Shown here piece after piece: positions 42,397-48,968 of a stretch of 49,147 nucleotides of DNA. The notes below the pieces were generated by a model. That model made no database searches, was not told where the DNA came from, and saw nothing but the letters and a program-made list of their open reading frames with translations. Each line of letters opens with the position of its first letter. The first letter of the stretch is position 1. The stretch covers positions 1 to 49,147 of the forward strand of contig NZ_JONS01000028.1 in the NCBI RefSeq assembly GCF_000711965.1, written 5' to 3'. The translations under genes were made by a program, and so were the position numbers. This stretch comes from Actinomyces israelii DSM 43320 (GTDB taxonomy: Bacteria > Actinomycetota > Actinomycetes > Actinomycetales > Actinomycetaceae).

Positions 42397-43593
42397 ATGA
42401 GGACGATGGGCGCAGCGCGGCCGGACCAGGCCCCGACGTCGGGCGGCGCCGGGGCCGACGGGGCTTCCGGAGCTTCCGGGGCTTCCGGGACTGCCGAGCC
42501 CCGCGAGTCTCAGCGAGCGCGCGCCGGCACCGAGGAGCAGCGGGTCTTCGAGGCCGCCTCCATGTACTACGTCCAGGCCGAGACCATGGAGGTCATCGCC
42601 CGCCACCTGCACTGCTCTCGCTCGACGGTCTCGCGCCTGCTCGCCCGGGCGCGCCGGGAGGGCGTCGTGCGCATCGAGCTGGTCCGGCCCGGCGGGGCCG
42701 GCGGCCTGGAGGCGCGCTTCGAGGCCGAGCTCGGCGTGCGCGCGCGCATCGTCCCCGTGCGCGAGGGCACCACCGAGATCCACCGCCTTCAGCAGGTCGC
42801 CGCCGTCGCCGCCTCCCGCTTCGTCGATATCGTCGGCGAGCTCGCGCAGGCCCCCGGCGCCCATGGCGGCGACGCAGGGCCCGCGCGGGCCGCCGGCGGG
42901 CAGGACGACGGCGGCCCGGGCGGGAGCGGGGACGGCGCCGGGCTCGTCGTCGGCTCCGCCTGGGGCAGAACCATGAGCGAGGTGGCGGCGGCGCTGCCGG
43001 CCAGGCGGATCCCCGGGCTGACCATCGTCCAGCTCAACGGGGCCTCGGACCCCATGCAGGAGGGGCCGTCGGCCGGCCAGATGCTGTCGCGGATGGGCGC
43101 CGCCCTGGGGGCGCGCACGATCGGGTTCCCGGTGCCCGCCTTCTTCGACCAGGCCGCGACCCGTCGCGCCATGTGGTCGGAGCGCTCGATCAAGCGCATC
43201 CTGGCCGTGGTCGCCGCCGCGCGCCTGGCCGTCTTCGGCGTGGGCACCCTGGAGTCCGGCTCCGGCGCCCTGCCCAGCCAGGTCTACGCGGGCGGCCACC
43301 TCACCCGCGCCGACCTGGCCGTCGCCCGGCGCGAGGGCGTCGTCGGGGACGTGTGCACCGTCCTGCTGCGGGGCGACGGCACCTGGGGTGACATCGAACT
43401 CAATGCCCGTGCCACCGGTCCCACCCCTGTCCGACTGGCGCGCATCCCGCGCAGACTGTGCGTCGTGGCCGGCACCGGCAAGGCCCGCGCCTGCGTCGCG
43501 GCCCTGCGCGCACGCGTGGCCACCGACCTCGTCGTCGACGATGCCACTGCCCGTGCGGTGCTGGCACTGCATCAGCGGAAGGAGACCTCATGA
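42397..43593 (+). CDS. SorC-family transcriptional regulator
   Basis: A 398-residue regulator. After a disordered Gly/Ala/Ser leader (1-45), a helix-turn-helix lies at about 50-95 (METMEVIARHLHCSRSTVSRLL). The sugar-phosphate-binding SorC effector domain occupies the rest, with SAWGRTMSEVAAAL, FGVGTLESGSGAL and DVCTVLL. A Gly/Asp-rich insert sits near 155-185. SorC proteins bind phosphorylated sugars or polyols; glycerol 3-phosphate or dihydroxyacetone phosphate is a natural guess given divergent glpDFK. ATG 42397 or 42406 may be the start; ribosome sites are weak for both. The stop overlaps the argA start (ATGA). Confidence 0.87.
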   Translation: MRTMGAARPDQAPTSGGAGADGASGASGASGTAEPRESQRARAGTEEQRVFEAASMYYVQAETMEVIARHLHCSRSTVSRLLARARREGVVRIELVRPGGAGGLEARFEAELGVRARIVPVREGTTEIHRLQQVAAVAASRFVDIVGELAQAPGAHGGDAGPARAAGGQDDGGPGGSGDGAGLVVGSAWGRTMSEVAAALPARRIPGLTIVQLNGASDPMQEGPSAGQMLSRMGAALGARTIGFPVPAFFDQAATRRAMWSERSIKRILAVVAAARLAVFGVGTLESGSGALPSQVYAGGHLTRADLAVARREGVVGDVCTVLLRGDGTWGDIELNARATGPTPVRLARIPRRLCVVAGTGKARACVAALRARVATDLVVDDATARAVLALHQRKETS

Positions 43594-44285
43594 GCGCGAG
43601 CCCGAGCCCCCTCAACGGCGCCGTGCGCGGTCGTGCGGCGGAGCACCCCGCCCCCGGGAGCGTGTATCCCATGCGCTCCGAGCCCCTCGGCCCGCTCGGG
43701 CGCTCCGGGGCGGCCGGGCGCACCGCGCCGGCCGGGCCCGCGGCGTCCGCGCTGCCCTGGCGCATGGTCCTGCGCCCCGCCCGCCCCGCGGACGCCCGCG
43801 CCATCGCCGAGCTCGTCCGGCCCTACTCCGATCGCCGCATCCTCATCCCCAAGGACCTCATCACCTACTTCGAGGACATCCAGGAGTTCACCGTCGCCGA
43901 GGGCACGGGGTCGCTCGACGGCTCCCCGGAGAGGAGCGGCGGCATTATCGGCTGCGGGGCCCTGCACGTCATGTGGGACGACATCGCCGAGGTGCGCACG
44001 CTCGCCGTGCGCAAGGACCGCATGCACCGAGGGGTCGGCGGCGCCATCCTGAACGAGCTGCTCGATCGCGCCCGCGGTCTGGGGCTGCGGCGCGTCTTCT
44101 GCCTGACCTTCGAGGTCGATTTCTTCACGGCGCACGGCTTCCACCCCATCTGGGGCACCCCGGTGGGCATGGACACCTTCGCCGAGATGGTGCGCAGCCA
44201 CGACGACGGGGTCGCCGAGTTCCTCGACCTGGCGCGGGTCAAGCCCAACACGCTGGGCAACACGCGCATGATCATCGAGTTGTGA
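43590..44285 (+). CDS. argA: Amino-acid N-acetyltransferase, short actinobacterial type
   Basis: A 231-residue GNAT enzyme, the first step of arginine synthesis (glutamate or glutamine N-acetylation). Beyond a disordered 55-residue leader it matches the mycobacterial single-domain ArgA: YFEDIQEFTVAE, GCGALHVMWDDIAEVRTLAV, acetyl-CoA loop HRGVGGAIL, VFCLTFEVDFFTAHGF and GVAEFLDLARVKPNTLGNTRM. There is no kinase-like domain, unlike E. coli ArgA. ATG 43590 has AAGGAG and overlaps the regulator stop, so expression is coupled to a glycerol-linked regulator, which is unusual. Confidence 0.9.
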   Translation: MSASPSPLNGAVRGRAAEHPAPGSVYPMRSEPLGPLGRSGAAGRTAPAGPAASALPWRMVLRPARPADARAIAELVRPYSDRRILIPKDLITYFEDIQEFTVAEGTGSLDGSPERSGGIIGCGALHVMWDDIAEVRTLAVRKDRMHRGVGGAILNELLDRARGLGLRRVFCLTFEVDFFTAHGFHPIWGTPVGMDTFAEMVRSHDDGVAEFLDLARVKPNTLGNTRMIIEL

Positions 44286-44308
44286 GGGCTGGGAGGGCTG
44301 GGAGGGCT

Positions 44309-45265
44309 GTGAGTGCTGCAGGCGCTGCCGGCGGCCCGGCCGGGGCGACGGCGGCACTGCCCGCACGGGCGGTCGTCGACTGGTACCGCGAGCACGCCCG
44401 GCGCCTGCCGTGGCGCGAGCCGGGGACCACCCCCTACGGCGTGCTGGTCTCGGAGGTCATGAGCCAGCAGACGCCGGTGGCCCGGGTCGTGCCCGCGTGG
44501 CGGCAGTGGATGAGCCGCTGGCCGGACCCGGCCGCCCTGGCGACGGCCGAGACCGGGGACGTCCTGCGGGTGTGGGGCCGCCTGGGCTACCCCCGGCGGG
44601 CGCTGCGACTCATGGAGTGCGCCCGCGCCGTCGTCGATCGCCACGGCGGCCGCCTGCCCTGCGACCTTGAGGCGCTGCGGGCGCTGCCGGGGATCGGCGA
44701 CTACACGGCCGGGGCAGTCATGGCCTTCGCCTACGGGCGCCGGGCGCTGACGCTGGACACCAATGTGCGGCGCGTACTCGCCCGCGCGGCCGGCGGCCGG
44801 GCCCTGCCGCCTCCCGCGCCGGTGCGCTCCGAGCGTGAGCGGGCCGAGGCGCTTCTGCCCGAGGACGACGCCGAGGCGGCCGCCTGGTCGGTGGCGGTCA
44901 TGGAGCTGGGGGCGCTGGTGTGCACCGCCCGCGAGCCGAGCTGCGGGCGCTGCCCGTGGCGCGAGAGGTGCGCGTGGCTGGCGGCGGGCAGGCCGGCGGA
45001 CGAGCACGCCGGCCGGCGCCGCAGGCAGGCCTGGCACGGGACGGACCGCCAGGCGCGGGGCCTGATCATGGCCCGGCTGCGCGAGGCCGACGCGGGCACG
45101 GCCCTGGGGGCCGGGGCGCTGCTGCGGGCCGCGAGTGGGGCCGGGGCCGGGGCCCGCGCGGGCCGGGCGGCGGATGGCGGGCAGCCGGCCCGAGCGCTGG
45201 CCTCCCTGCTGGCCGACGGTCTCATCGCCACCGACGACGACGGGGCGACCTTCCGCCTGCCCTGA
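44309..45265 (+). CDS. mutY: A/G-specific adenine glycosylase
   Basis: A 318-residue base-excision repair enzyme that removes adenine opposite 8-oxoguanine. SEVMSQQTPVARVVPAW carries the catalytic Glu (about 49). The helix-hairpin-helix is LPGIGDYTAGAVMAFAYG, and catalytic D150 is in LDTNVRRV. The 4Fe-4S cysteines have spacing C-x6-C-x2-C-x5-C (about 205-222). The C-terminus is a short winged-helix-like segment (ALASLLADGLI) instead of a NUDIX-like domain, as in mycobacterial MutY. GTG 44309 follows G-rich repeats (GGGAGGGCT). It is 23 bp after argA and probably in the same transcript. Confidence 0.93.
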   Translation: MSAAGAAGGPAGATAALPARAVVDWYREHARRLPWREPGTTPYGVLVSEVMSQQTPVARVVPAWRQWMSRWPDPAALATAETGDVLRVWGRLGYPRRALRLMECARAVVDRHGGRLPCDLEALRALPGIGDYTAGAVMAFAYGRRALTLDTNVRRVLARAAGGRALPPPAPVRSERERAEALLPEDDAEAAAWSVAVMELGALVCTAREPSCGRCPWRERCAWLAAGRPADEHAGRRRRQAWHGTDRQARGLIMARLREADAGTALGAGALLRAASGAGAGARAGRAADGGQPARALASLLADGLIATDDDGATFRLP

Positions 45266-45788
45266 GGCCGGTCGCGCGGAAGGGACTGAGGACCCATCGG
45301 GGCTGCGGGCGGGCTGGGCGCCCAATGCCAGCGGAAAGTACGCTCACGCTGGAAGGGTGCGTTCACGTTCGCCGGAGCGCCCTGGGCGGAGGCCCGAACG
45401 ACCAGATACCCGGATGCCCGGCCCCGCACTGCCCCCGCGGTCCCTCTTCGTCAAGGGTCGTATTCCGGCTCGAAACCGGTTCGGTTCCGCGTCGAGATCA
45501 GTCCGAGGAGTCCGGCGGGCGTCGGCCGAGTGGCGCTGCCCTGTGGGGCCGACTGCCGGACTGTCCGGGAAGAGAACCCCTCGCGAGGTAACCTGCCTGT
45601 GCGGCTGGTACTGGTGGACGTATCCCTCCGCGGTGGTGACGGCTTCGTGGGTAGCTTGCCGACGCCGGCGCGCGAGAAGTACTTCTGATAGCTGGCACGG
45701 CTGACGCGGATCCGCGCCTGCTCGGCCACGCGTCTGTTTCCAAGCCTTCGCCGTGGACAGGTGGCTGCTGCCCGCATAGCCTGTGGCC
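45266..45788. other. Gene-poor region with repeats, no recognised gene
   Basis: About 520 bp without a supported gene. It holds two imperfect direct repeats (45338-45352 and 45357-45375, sharing CG-TCACG), the dispersed repeat copy C, and a stretch (45590-45770) that can be read as a 108-residue minus-strand frame with a basic end I could not identify. It may be gene debris. No ribosome site supports that frame. Confidence 0.5.
45470..45505 (-). repeat. Dispersed intergenic repeat, copy C
   Basis: On the minus strand GGACTGATCTCGACGCGG followed by AACCGAACCGGTTTCG. It combines the core shared by copies A, B and D with the GCGGAACCG module that precedes the core in copy A. Confidence 0.55.
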
Positions 45789-48485
45789 ATGTCCCCTTCC
45801 GCTGACATCGGGCGTTCGCGTGCCGGGGGCGGTGCGGGCGGCAGCTGGCGCCAGGCGCCGACAGAGAAAGTGTATTCCTGCGACCGCGCCGACCGCGATC
45901 GGGGAATCGAGGCGTGGGCGGGTTCGACGCTCGGGACTCTGGATGTCCTTTTTACTCTCAACGCCGTGTTCCGCTCGGTCAGGCCGTACACCGTCATACT
46001 TCTTTTTTGCGGATGCGCCCTTATTCTGTACGGTGCGGGAAGGTTCGTGCTGCGCGGCCAGGTCCGTGAGTCGCCCGGCCGCTGGCGTCTGGGCACCGAT
46101 TCCGTTGAGTTCGGGCCGTGCTGGGGATTTCTTCTGTGGGAGCAGATGCCTCCCGCGATGGTAGTTGCTGGTGCCGTGGTCGTGCTACGGATGCCAGTAC
46201 CTTCAGGTGTTACTCATTCTGGCACATCCAGGGTGCTGCCACTTGTTTTAGCCGTGCTCTGCGGCGCTGCTATCACCTGGGCGACCATGCCTGTGAATCC
46301 GCCTCAGAAGCCCGAGGTCATTCTTGAACCTCTGGGAATGTGGCTGTGGCCCGATGGCCGCTATCGTGCGTTCATTCCCTGGGAGCTGGAGCCTGTTGTT
46401 GCGGGACGTGCACGTCATGGTACGCAGGTCTGTGCGGTCATCACCCTGGACGCAGGACCTCCAGCGTATTTCCCCATATTTCCCATTCCGCTGGGCTACG
46501 TCCAGCTCCAGCGCGTGGTCGAGTTCTACTCCACCCACCCCGAGCTGCGTGACGAGCTGGCCGCTGAGGCGGGCCTTGAGCGCGTCCGCACCCTCATGTA
46601 CACGCCCGTCTGGCGGGTCGAGGAGGACCTTCCTCCCGCACCGGCCGTGCCGAGCCAGGAGCCCGCCGCGCTGTACGAGGCGTTCACGCCGATCGACGAC
46701 ACCAACGATGTCGATGACGCTGCGGCCGCAGTGAGCGATGCGGTTGCCGACACCGGCGGCGCCGCTCCGACTTCCTCACCCGTGCCGAGGAGCCGGCCCG
46801 CTCGCAAGAACCGCGTGCTCGCCCCAACCAGGCCTCAGCCGCCGTCCGGTGCCATCGACTGCGAGAAGGCGGATGGCAGACGGAACGGCGCCCCGCTGCG
46901 CTCCCTGTTCTACGCCGTCATCGTCTTCGTGGTCCTTGTGCACTACGCGGCCGGGGACAACATCTCTGTACTCGCATTCCTGGGGTCCGGAGTTATTCTC
47001 ATTCTCCTGCTCCATGCGCTACTTCTTCTGGGGATGCGGATTTCCATAGCGCTAGCATCCCGGCGATGGGGCAGGTGCTCTGAGGGGATTGCGCTGCCGC
47101 GATTCTGGATCTTCCCGGCAGCCAAGCACCTGGGTGCCCTGCTCCTTGCCGCCCTCGGGCTCTTCTCTGCCTGGTCGGTTCTTTTCGACAGAGACGTTCC
47201 CGAGGATCTCCCCATTCCTTCTCTCTGCGCCGCGACGGCCTGCATCGTTGTCGCCGTCGTGACATGGCGGAGAACCCCGCGACCGCGACTCGGGGCCGAG
47301 ATCATCCTCGACCCTACAGGTCTCCGCGTCGCTCCGGGTACCCGCCACGAGGCCTCCTTCCTGTGGACGGACGGCCCCCGCGTCGTCGGCGCCGTTAGAT
47401 TCGGCTCCGCGCTCGTCATCACCCCCGATTCCAGCACTGCGCCGGTCTCCGTGCGCATGGGCACCGTCCCCCTGACCTACGTCCAGCTCCAGCGTGTGGT
47501 CGAGTTCTACTCCACCCACCCCGAGCTGCGCGACGAGCTCGCCGCCGAGGCGGGCCTTGAGCGCGTCCGCACCCTCATGAGCGTTCCCGTCTGGCAGATC
47601 GAGGAAGAGGAGTCGCTACCACTTCCGAGCGCGTGCGCCCACAGACCCGCCGCGTCGAACAAGGCATGTGCGCCGGGCGATGATGGCGGGAGCGCGGAAG
47701 TCTCGCCCGCCGTTGTCATGGAGCCTCCGATCCCGCCCGGCGCTCTTGATTGCGCGAGGGCGGATCGCCGAAGGATGGCCGCGCCGCGTCGCACCCTTGT
47801 CGGGGCGCTCGGGATTCTGGCGGCTCTCATTGCCGTTCTCGCCGCCGAGTTGAGGACGACAATGATCTTCCTGCTCGCCGTCACCTTCATCCTCATGCTG
47901 CTGCGGGCCGCCGCGCTGTATGTCTTCCGGTCCCCTTTGGAGCACGCGGATGAGCAGTGGGTCCTCAGCGACAGCGGCGTCGCACTGCCATCGCTGTGGG
48001 CCTCTCCGCTCGCCACGCGCATGGGTGCGGCGGCGCTTCTCTTGACCGGGCTTTTCAGCTTCTCGGTCGCTGCGGCCGCCATCCCTCACGAGGAGCGGTT
48101 GCGCGTTCCGTCCATGGCCGCAGCGGTCGTGTGCGTCGTCGTCGCCTGTATGGTCTGGTCGGGCACCCGGCGACCCCACGGGGGGCCGGAGATCCTCCTG
48201 GACCCGCGGGGCGCTCGCTTCGCGCCGGGCACTGGCCGCGAGGTGGTGCTCCCGTGGGATGGTCACCCCCGTGTGGTTGGCGCTTCCAGGGGCCAGATGC
48301 TCGTCGGTCTTCTCTGCGACCCCGGTGCGGGCCTGGTGCGCCTGCCCATGGACTCCCTCACCGCTGGCTGCACCCAGCTCCGGCAGGTGATGGAGCTGTA
48401 CTCCACCCGCCCCGAGCTGCGCCGCGAGCTCGCCGCCGAGGCGGGCCTTGAGCGCGTCCGCACCCTCATGCGCGCCCCCGTCTGA
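45789..48485 (+). CDS. Three-module integral membrane protein, unknown family
   Basis: An 898-residue protein made of three tandem copies of one module. Each copy has about three or four membrane helices, then a soluble domain with the pattern PEIxLDPxG, a PG-turn, PW and VVGA (possibly PH-like), then a 34-residue helical motif (YVQLQRVVEFYSTHPELRDE and on) ending RVRTLM-x2-PV. The motif lies at residues 237-270, 564-597 and 861-894. Acidic linkers of about 60-80 residues separate modules. Module 1 has lower GC and rarer codons, including TTA at 46249. I do not recognise the family. The start is ATG 45789 (GTG 45783 is also possible); no ribosome site is visible. It has no obvious operon partner. 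Confidence 0.82.
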   Translation: MSPSADIGRSRAGGGAGGSWRQAPTEKVYSCDRADRDRGIEAWAGSTLGTLDVLFTLNAVFRSVRPYTVILLFCGCALILYGAGRFVLRGQVRESPGRWRLGTDSVEFGPCWGFLLWEQMPPAMVVAGAVVVLRMPVPSGVTHSGTSRVLPLVLAVLCGAAITWATMPVNPPQKPEVILEPLGMWLWPDGRYRAFIPWELEPVVAGRARHGTQVCAVITLDAGPPAYFPIFPIPLGYVQLQRVVEFYSTHPELRDELAAEAGLERVRTLMYTPVWRVEEDLPPAPAVPSQEPAALYEAFTPIDDTNDVDDAAAAVSDAVADTGGAAPTSSPVPRSRPARKNRVLAPTRPQPPSGAIDCEKADGRRNGAPLRSLFYAVIVFVVLVHYAAGDNISVLAFLGSGVILILLLHALLLLGMRISIALASRRWGRCSEGIALPRFWIFPAAKHLGALLLAALGLFSAWSVLFDRDVPEDLPIPSLCAATACIVVAVVTWRRTPRPRLGAEIILDPTGLRVAPGTRHEASFLWTDGPRVVGAVRFGSALVITPDSSTAPVSVRMGTVPLTYVQLQRVVEFYSTHPELRDELAAEAGLERVRTLMSVPVWQIEEEESLPLPSACAHRPAASNKACAPGDDGGSAEVSPAVVMEPPIPPGALDCARADRRRMAAPRRTLVGALGILAALIAVLAAELRTTMIFLLAVTFILMLLRAAALYVFRSPLEHADEQWVLSDSGVALPSLWASPLATRMGAAALLLTGLFSFSVAAAAIPHEERLRVPSMAAAVVCVVVACMVWSGTRRPHGGPEILLDPRGARFAPGTGREVVLPWDGHPRVVGASRGQMLVGLLCDPGAGLVRLPMDSLTAGCTQLRQVMELYSTRPELRRELAAEAGLERVRTLMRAPV
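46497..46598 (+). repeat. 102-bp internal repeat R1 of the three-module gene
   Basis: Encodes the 34-residue motif. It differs from R2 at four bases of 102, all synonymous. Confidence 0.92.
47478..47579 (+). repeat. 102-bp internal repeat R2 of the three-module gene
   Basis: 981 bp after R1. Its last 45 bases are identical to those of R3. Confidence 0.92.
48369..48470 (+). repeat. 102-bp internal repeat R3 of the three-module gene
   Basis: 891 bp after R2. The first half has diverged (Tyr to Cys and others); the second half is identical to R2. Confidence 0.9.
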
Positions 48486-48968
48486 GCCGGGGAAGGGGTC
48501 CCCTGCCTCCTGCTGGCGGGCCTTGAGCGCGTCCCCATGGTTGTGGCCGCCAGTGCCGACAGTGCTGCCCCGGGCCTGCGTGGTTCCGCCGCCGTCCCAC
48601 CCGCGCCCAGACCACCTCGACGGCGCCTTGGACGCGCTCGCAGGCGCACGTGCCAGATGGCGGTGAGATCAGGCGCGCCATGGTCGGCGCGGGCCAGGAG
48701 ACCGTGGCCCGGGTGCCGCGCGGGGCGGGTGGGGGGTCATGCCACCGGAGGGCTGCGCCCCGCGGGGCGGCCCGTCCCACCGGCTCACGGGCTACCGGCC
48801 GTCATGTTCGTGCCGGTTCGTTGTGGGTGGGGTGGGGTCTGGCGGGTGGGTGTGTTCGGTTCTGTGGTGTTTCGGGGCGGTGTGGGCTGGGCTACATTGT
48901 GTTCTTTCTGTTGTCTCTGCGATAGGCCCCGTGGCCGACTGGGTGCGGCCGACTGGGTGCGGGGGTGT
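48486..48968. other. Intergenic region with repeat remnant and GC-rich palindrome
   Basis: About 480 bp without a supported gene. It contains a 20-bp remnant of the internal repeat (48515-48534), a hairpin-forming palindrome (CGCCCCGCGGGGCG, 48756-48769) that may terminate the three-module gene, a G/T-rich tract (48800-48890), a possible -10 box TACATT (48893-48898) and a perfect 14-bp tandem duplication (48933-48946 and 48947-48960). Confidence 0.55.
48515..48534 (+). repeat. 20-bp remnant of the R motif after the stop codon
   Basis: Exactly matches bases 48440-48459 of R3 (GGCGGGCCTTGAGCGCGTCC). The flanks do not match, so it is a leftover of a fourth copy or a recombination trace. Confidence 0.75.

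Follow-up and report, generated by a model that had tools for sequence, protein, structure and literature searches.

The gene at positions 45789–48485 (+) of the stretch of Actinomyces israelii DSM 43320 DNA analysed here (49,147 nucleotides, hereafter called the window) encodes a fused three-module membrane protein of 898 amino acids, which we judge, with a probability of roughly 60%, to be an orphan polyimmunity protein directed against membrane-active type VII toxins. As is expected of a polyimmunity protein, the chain carries several homologous units, three modules in this case, and the same module occurs elsewhere as single genes. A predicted effector gene adjoins the modules of relatives, the window copy itself being without such a neighbour.

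The coding region is a single, uninterrupted open frame of 898 codons, and an in-frame GTG at 45783 is an alternative start that would yield 900 amino acids. Given that close full-length relatives (P0002 to P0004) share 88% identity with the window protein over 100% coverage, this frame is not an accident of assembly. Close relatives are carried by A. gerencseriae DSM 6844 (G009), A. massiliensis 4401292 (G016) and Actinomyces sp. oral taxon 448 (G031). A sequence-only reading of this DNA had described three ordered modules in the 898-codon frame, which is borne out by the open frame and by the in-order alignment of the modules. The alternative it had named, a broken frame that is really three genes, does not agree with a frame that is intact both here and in P0002 to P0004.

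Within each module, a hydrophobic part is combined with a soluble part and a repeat end. Module 1 (45870–46646, +) and module 3 (47742–48482, +) were recognized by their matches to a module profile and placed by tree in the m1 and m3 clades, respectively, and module 2 (46851–47627, +), a member of the m2 group, by its profile match and an AlphaFold2 model. Against this profile, modules 1, 2 and 3 score 323, 295 and 256 bits, all three being among the 41 rows used to build it. A soluble-domain motif pointed out earlier does recur in each module, with a wording that varies between them (PEVILEPLG, AEIILDPTG and PEILLDPRG, together with VVAG, VVGA and VVGA, in modules 1 to 3). By hydropathy scan, modules 1, 2 and 3 have 3, 4 and 4 membrane helices, and 12 helices are likely in the full chain. 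Ahead of their repeat ends, the modules are 17–37% identical in protein, a level low enough to indicate an old duplication.

The AlphaFold2 model of module 2 alone (pLDDT 92.4, pTM 0.86) has four membrane helices on the + strand, corresponding to model residues 19–38 (46890–46949), 44–72 (46965–47051), 92–117 (47109–47186) and 126–146 (47211–47273). A beta hairpin (47070–47099, +) links helix 2 to helix 3 on the side that is positively charged and predicted to be cytoplasmic, and a PH-like soluble domain of strands and C-terminal helices (47295–47582, +) follows helix 4. According to this model, the module would combine a PH-like domain with about four membrane helices.

The earlier remark that the protein could not be linked to a named family still stands. 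Neither Pfam nor NCBIfam gives a match over its cut-off for the window protein, and the same is true of four module proteins of relatives searched against Pfam and of three relatives searched against NCBIfam. When 41 modules were scanned singly against Pfam, scattered weak matches were obtained (best E 0.0011 among the best 25 of 34 families). Glyco_trans_1_2 (PF13524) reaches 22.5 bits against a cut-off of 25 and is confined to 41 residues of the repeat end. DUF443 and bPH_2 (PF03703) are both absent from the complete Pfam list of the window protein at E ≤ 10, which holds three other families, and neither is among the best 25 of the 34 weakly matching families for the 41 modules. A search of the same genome for bPH_2 yielded four matches, none within the fused gene.

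Given the predicted PH-like fold, the modules might be general membrane- or lipid-binding proteins, similar to bPH_2 proteins, that were recruited without a toxin-specific role. In YdbT-type bPH_2 proteins, membrane helices alternate with PH-like domains in several copies per chain, and this layout resembles that of the window protein, but the latter lacks a bPH_2 match. A general role of this kind would also suit L133, a distant relative with one module from outside the family (E 2e-11); it is located beside a frame that we take to be purQ-like, and none of the frames listed over its 3.7 kb was noticed to be toxin-like. However, in the genomes searched, good module matches are concentrated in the family, where 37 of 213 genomes have one at E ≤ 1e-3, compared with 12 of 396 in a draw from the phylum, one of these being the window genome and the others having E values of 2e-11 or weaker. 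In addition, every spanning toxin-like gene of the genus is linked to a module, as described below, and we therefore regard a purely general role as improbable.

A protein search that scored the 7994 candidates sharing most words returned 13 proteins, including the window's own, none of which carries a name or a Pfam domain. Relatives of the whole protein are present in 18 of the 49 genus genomes, and module profile matches in 20. Frames with one module measure 254–315 amino acids, those with two 565–651 and those with three 844–916, such that the search for single-module homologues in the family recommended by the sequence-only reading does find them. The number of modules per locus varies as well, with up to six module matches at one locus (G033). 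Because one-, two- and three-module chains exist, three is not a fixed number, and the idea that the modules assemble as an internal pseudo-trimer is not supported.

When module bodies are placed in a tree, m1 forms a single group, and so do m3 and either half of the two-module proteins (bootstrap 99–100); m2 is grouped weakly (57/94; 61% of bootstrap trees), and a wider cluster, at 100/100, unites m2 and m3 with the second half of the two-module proteins. This grouping indicates that the duplication predates these species. At one locus of oral taxon 448 (L042, 6441–9173), module 1 is in a different reading frame from modules 2–3 in the genome searched, whereas P0010, a single chain of 906 amino acids, carries, as judged by eye, the modules of that locus.

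The repeat ends have a history distinct from that of the module bodies. What had been described as a 34-residue motif is indeed repeated three times, but DNA comparison shows a longer block of 145 nucleotides. Copy 1 (46483–46627, +) is 88% identical to copy 2 (47464–47608, +) and 75% identical to copy 3 (48355–48499, +), whose match extends beyond the stop codon. A stray fourth partial copy of 23 nucleotides with 96% identity (48515–48537, +) is located about 30 bp behind the stop and is possibly debris from crossing-over. DNA identity is 83–91% for repeat ends versus 37–52% for module bodies. Among the four species with triples, the bodies share 51% protein identity when the same position is compared across species and 27% when the positions within one protein are compared, whereas this order is reversed for the repeat ends, with 73% across species and 76% within one protein.

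Four-fold degenerate sites, for which the pairs compared are not independent, behave similarly. In the repeat ends, 192 of 230 such sites match within a gene, 236 of 330 at the same position across species and 448 of 621 otherwise, where chance predicts 0.57; in the bodies, the corresponding counts are 175 of 460, 686 of 1319 and 513 of 1325, with a chance value of 0.33. For modules 2 and 3 of the window, 20 of 20 four-fold sites agree in the repeat end, compared with 24 of 55 body sites. Of the four species, that of the window and A. gerencseriae give the clearest signal, and the remaining two a weaker one. Judged from these sequence patterns, the homogenisation fits recombination inside the gene.

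In other Actinomyces species, modules are found behind a cassette with the order SAV_915-like gene, gene for a WXG100-sized protein, toxin-like gene, modules. The SAV_915 match reaches 75.8 bits against a cut-off of 40 in the one member scanned, and similar genes are present at other cassettes. The WXG100-sized partner has about 97 amino acids and no match among solved ESX proteins. Its resemblance to DUF6317 is weak: of 12 members, 6 match at E ≤ 0.1, and one member scores 20.3 bits where the cut-off is 27.4. Toxin-like proteins are 390–425 amino acids in length and have a hydrophobic C-terminal region with a maximum mean hydropathy of 1.35–2.19. Eight of them were aligned. A Pfam scan of eight members gives weak matches (best E 0.006), and the toxin-like proteins have no PDB sequence match at E ≤ 1. 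Glycine zippers are not enriched in their tails, with two seen against 5.7 expected from shuffles. At three loci (L032, L034 and L035), a fused pair of modules also precedes the cassette.

The toxin-like profile matches 14 of the 49 genus genomes at E ≤ 1e-3, including N-terminal-only matches in the window genome (G000) and in G003. All 16 genus matches that span the profile (from position 130 or less to position 300 or more) have a module 45–1377 bp downstream on the same strand, and three of the 16 contain an in-frame stop. We also scored 60 matches from the genus and from 17 further genomes, a biased set picked for having modules. Within this collection, a module lies within 2 kb of 24 of 28 spanning matches, 13 of 14 C-terminal tails and 5 of 18 N-terminal-only matches. 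Each of those five is a fragment of a gene, the rest of which is counted as another match, and the other 13, some of which are near contig ends, have no module within 2 kb. The module link therefore goes with the C-terminal tail. Four spanning matches outside the genus had no module within 2 kb by the first scoring, and two of them (L114 and L115) have, by another scoring, weak modules 101 bp away (19 and 25 bits).

Seven tails without an adjoining N-terminus each have a module 66–501 bp behind them. Partial toxin copies beside immunity genes are known at polymorphic toxin loci (PMC9484751, in excerpt). In a mirror-tree test with 23 pairs, module distances track the N-terminal part of the toxin-like partner with a rho of 0.63 and its tail with a rho of 0.42. 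For the tail, a partial correlation of 0.13, reached by 107 of 2000 permutations, lends no support to specific pairing.

The modules also co-occur with the type VII secretion gene eccB, whose product (PF05108) is detected in 13 of the 49 genus genomes. Module and EccB are found together in 12 genomes, module only in eight, EccB only in one (G027) and neither in 28 (p = 1.4e-5). For module and toxin-like gene, the counts are 12, eight, zero and 29 (p = 1.4e-6), with the two N-terminal-only genomes counted as lacking the toxin-like gene; both p values come from Fisher tests that ignore kinship. Thus, 8 of the 20 module-bearing genomes are without a toxin-like gene and 8 of 20 are without detected EccB, the window genome belonging to both sets. 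G003 and G031 have EccB and modules with no toxin-like gene, except for the N-terminal piece in G003.

At the A. massiliensis locus, the cassette adjoins a gene for EccC, whose two domains score 844.5 and 813.3 bits, over the cut-off. Two WXG100 proteins over the cut-off and EccB are encoded there as well, along with mycosin and EccD matches below their cut-offs. In G048 and G014, the cassette is 6–8 kb from EccB. Long EccC-like ATPases that fall below the EccC_a cut-off were seen at G000:C53:14117–15244 and neighbouring positions of the window genome and in G013, G018, G022 and G028; EccB was not detected in these genomes, and the ATPases perhaps represent another type VII variant.

These linkages bring forward the main rival explanation, that the modules are export partners needed to pass the hydrophobic effector on to the type VII apparatus or to maintain its solubility. 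Such a role would be compatible with the regular gene order behind the effector, with the co-occurrence with EccB and with the tracking of the N-terminal part of the effector in the mirror-tree test, and there is a precedent in DdE and DdF, PH-domain membrane proteins required for export of the membrane-active bacteriocin EntDD14 (PMC8657885, in excerpt). However, an export partner is difficult to reconcile with a module number that varies, up to the six matches seen at one locus, with the genomes that hold modules and lack the toxin-like gene or detected EccB, and with modules that persist behind tails devoid of an N-terminus. We consider this explanation possible but doubtful.

The state of the window locus is best appreciated by comparison with that of A. 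massiliensis. Upstream of the fused gene is an HhH-GPD glycosylase gene (44327–45265, +; 57.2 bits), which we take to be mutY and which has an 87% identical copy in A. massiliensis. The DNA ending with this gene (42530–45267) aligns at 82% to A. massiliensis (L140, 5–2745); similarity ends at 45267 and restarts at 45846, inside the fused gene. The spacer between mutY and the triple is about 520 bp in the window (45268–45788), and its A. massiliensis counterpart is about 17 kb. The order in that species is mutY, type VII core, SAV_915-like gene, WXG-like gene, toxin-like gene, fused triple, disA and radA. In the window genome, disA is located 2 kb from the end of another contig (C2), whose DNA beyond disA corresponds to flanking sequence found some 100 bp past the fused triple of A. 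massiliensis. The window contig extends 0.66 kb past its own triple and then stops at an assembly gap.

A search of the window with the cassette proteins gave no match, and neither did searches of the window genome with one toxin-like sequence as the query or for EccB. The toxin-like profile finds one N-terminal-only match in this genome, a 418-amino-acid protein (L059, 1498–2754; G000:C62) that has a different C-terminus and no module nearby and matches WXG100 weakly (16.9 bits against a cut-off of 27.3). Given that EccB lies 7.6 kb behind mutY in oral taxon 448, loss of the type VII locus from the window genome is probably to be favoured over its gain in A. massiliensis.

Loci with and without the cassette are also found at two further sites. 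At the site flanked by genes for a Cys/Met enzyme and IMPDH, the cassette is present in L036, L037 and L041, and modules stand alone in L040 and L042; some species have the modules of this site as separate genes in tandem, and another has them as one fused triple. Behind purA, the cassette is present in L032 and L034, and modules stand alone in L043, L044 and L045 (L035 ends before purA). Near the purA locus, arrays of similar proteins of about 250–360 amino acids were observed (L034, 983–4027 and neighbouring positions), two scanned members of which match LppM with 54.3 and 30.9 bits (cut-off 27).

The orphan state raises the prospect that the fused gene is a functionless relic, disappearing after loss of the type VII locus. 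The window genome, with no EccB match and an N-terminal-only toxin-like match, could be read in this manner, and the triple of oral taxon 448 that has no linked cassette (L042) is split over two frames, which rather fits decay. We nevertheless consider a relic very improbable, since the frame is intact in the window and its close relatives and a cassette-free triple also occurs in oral taxon 448.

Our preferred reading, that the gene encodes an orphan polyimmunity protein, leads to the following scheme. The toxin-like protein would be exported by the type VII machine, and its hydrophobic tail would insert into and damage the membranes of competing cells. Each module would bind or block one tail variant within the membrane, and its PH-like domain would anchor the helices, or present them, from what is predicted to be the cytoplasmic side. 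Three different modules per chain could then cover several tail variants, and the orphan triple of the window would shield its host against the toxins of other Actinomyces.

We give about even odds to a broader proposal, in which Actinomyces species engage in interbacterial warfare by type VII systems of the EccB/EccC type, with a new immunity class of four helices plus a PH-like domain that some species carry as tandem genes and others as chains of two or three fused units, with units reshuffled inside a single gene by recombination at the repeat ends and with orphan triples retained where there is no secretion locus. If true, this would provide a testable toxin–immunity pair in Actinomyces and a new immunity fold, a natural case of one gene gaining, losing or reshuffling immunity units through recombination, and a likely function for an unnamed protein family present in 37 of 213 family genomes.

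Among the papers listed in full-text searches on type VII toxins and immunity, most deal with Firmicutes, and no title addresses such a system in Actinomyces. The comparisons below draw on excerpts of the cited papers. A close parallel is provided by polyimmunity proteins and loci, which likewise have several immunity-type domains per chain, or tandem paralogues in the same orientation elsewhere (PMC3482391). Nearly all known immunity proteins described there are cytoplasmic and globular, whereas the unit considered here is a predicted four-helix membrane protein with a PH-like domain, for which immunity is inferred. Also, those polyimmunity loci are described without interrupting toxin cassettes, whereas some loci in the present study have toxin-like tails between modules.

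The TspA/TsaI system of Staphylococcus aureus similarly links a toxin to a run of polytopic membrane proteins (PMC7456083). TspA has one or two C-terminal membrane segments, and the adjacent membrane protein is its immunity protein. However, TsaI has five predicted helices and DUF443 as opposed to the four helices and PH-like domain of the modelled module, and the units in Actinomyces can be fused and accompany secretion genes of the EccB/EccC type. The esaG and tipC arrays recombine at blocks of high similarity, much as each module here has one homogenised block, but these are separate genes, whereas in the present case the blocks also reside inside one gene; little evidence of recombination is described for the membrane family TsaI (PMC9484751). 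The glycine-zipper toxins EsxX and TelE are likewise type VII effectors with a hydrophobic, membrane-active C-terminus, but the tails described above have no excess of glycine zippers (PMC12744356, PMC10434224). ExiA/ExiB and TipE are cytoplasmic immunity proteins of DUF5085 (PMC12744356, PMC10434224).
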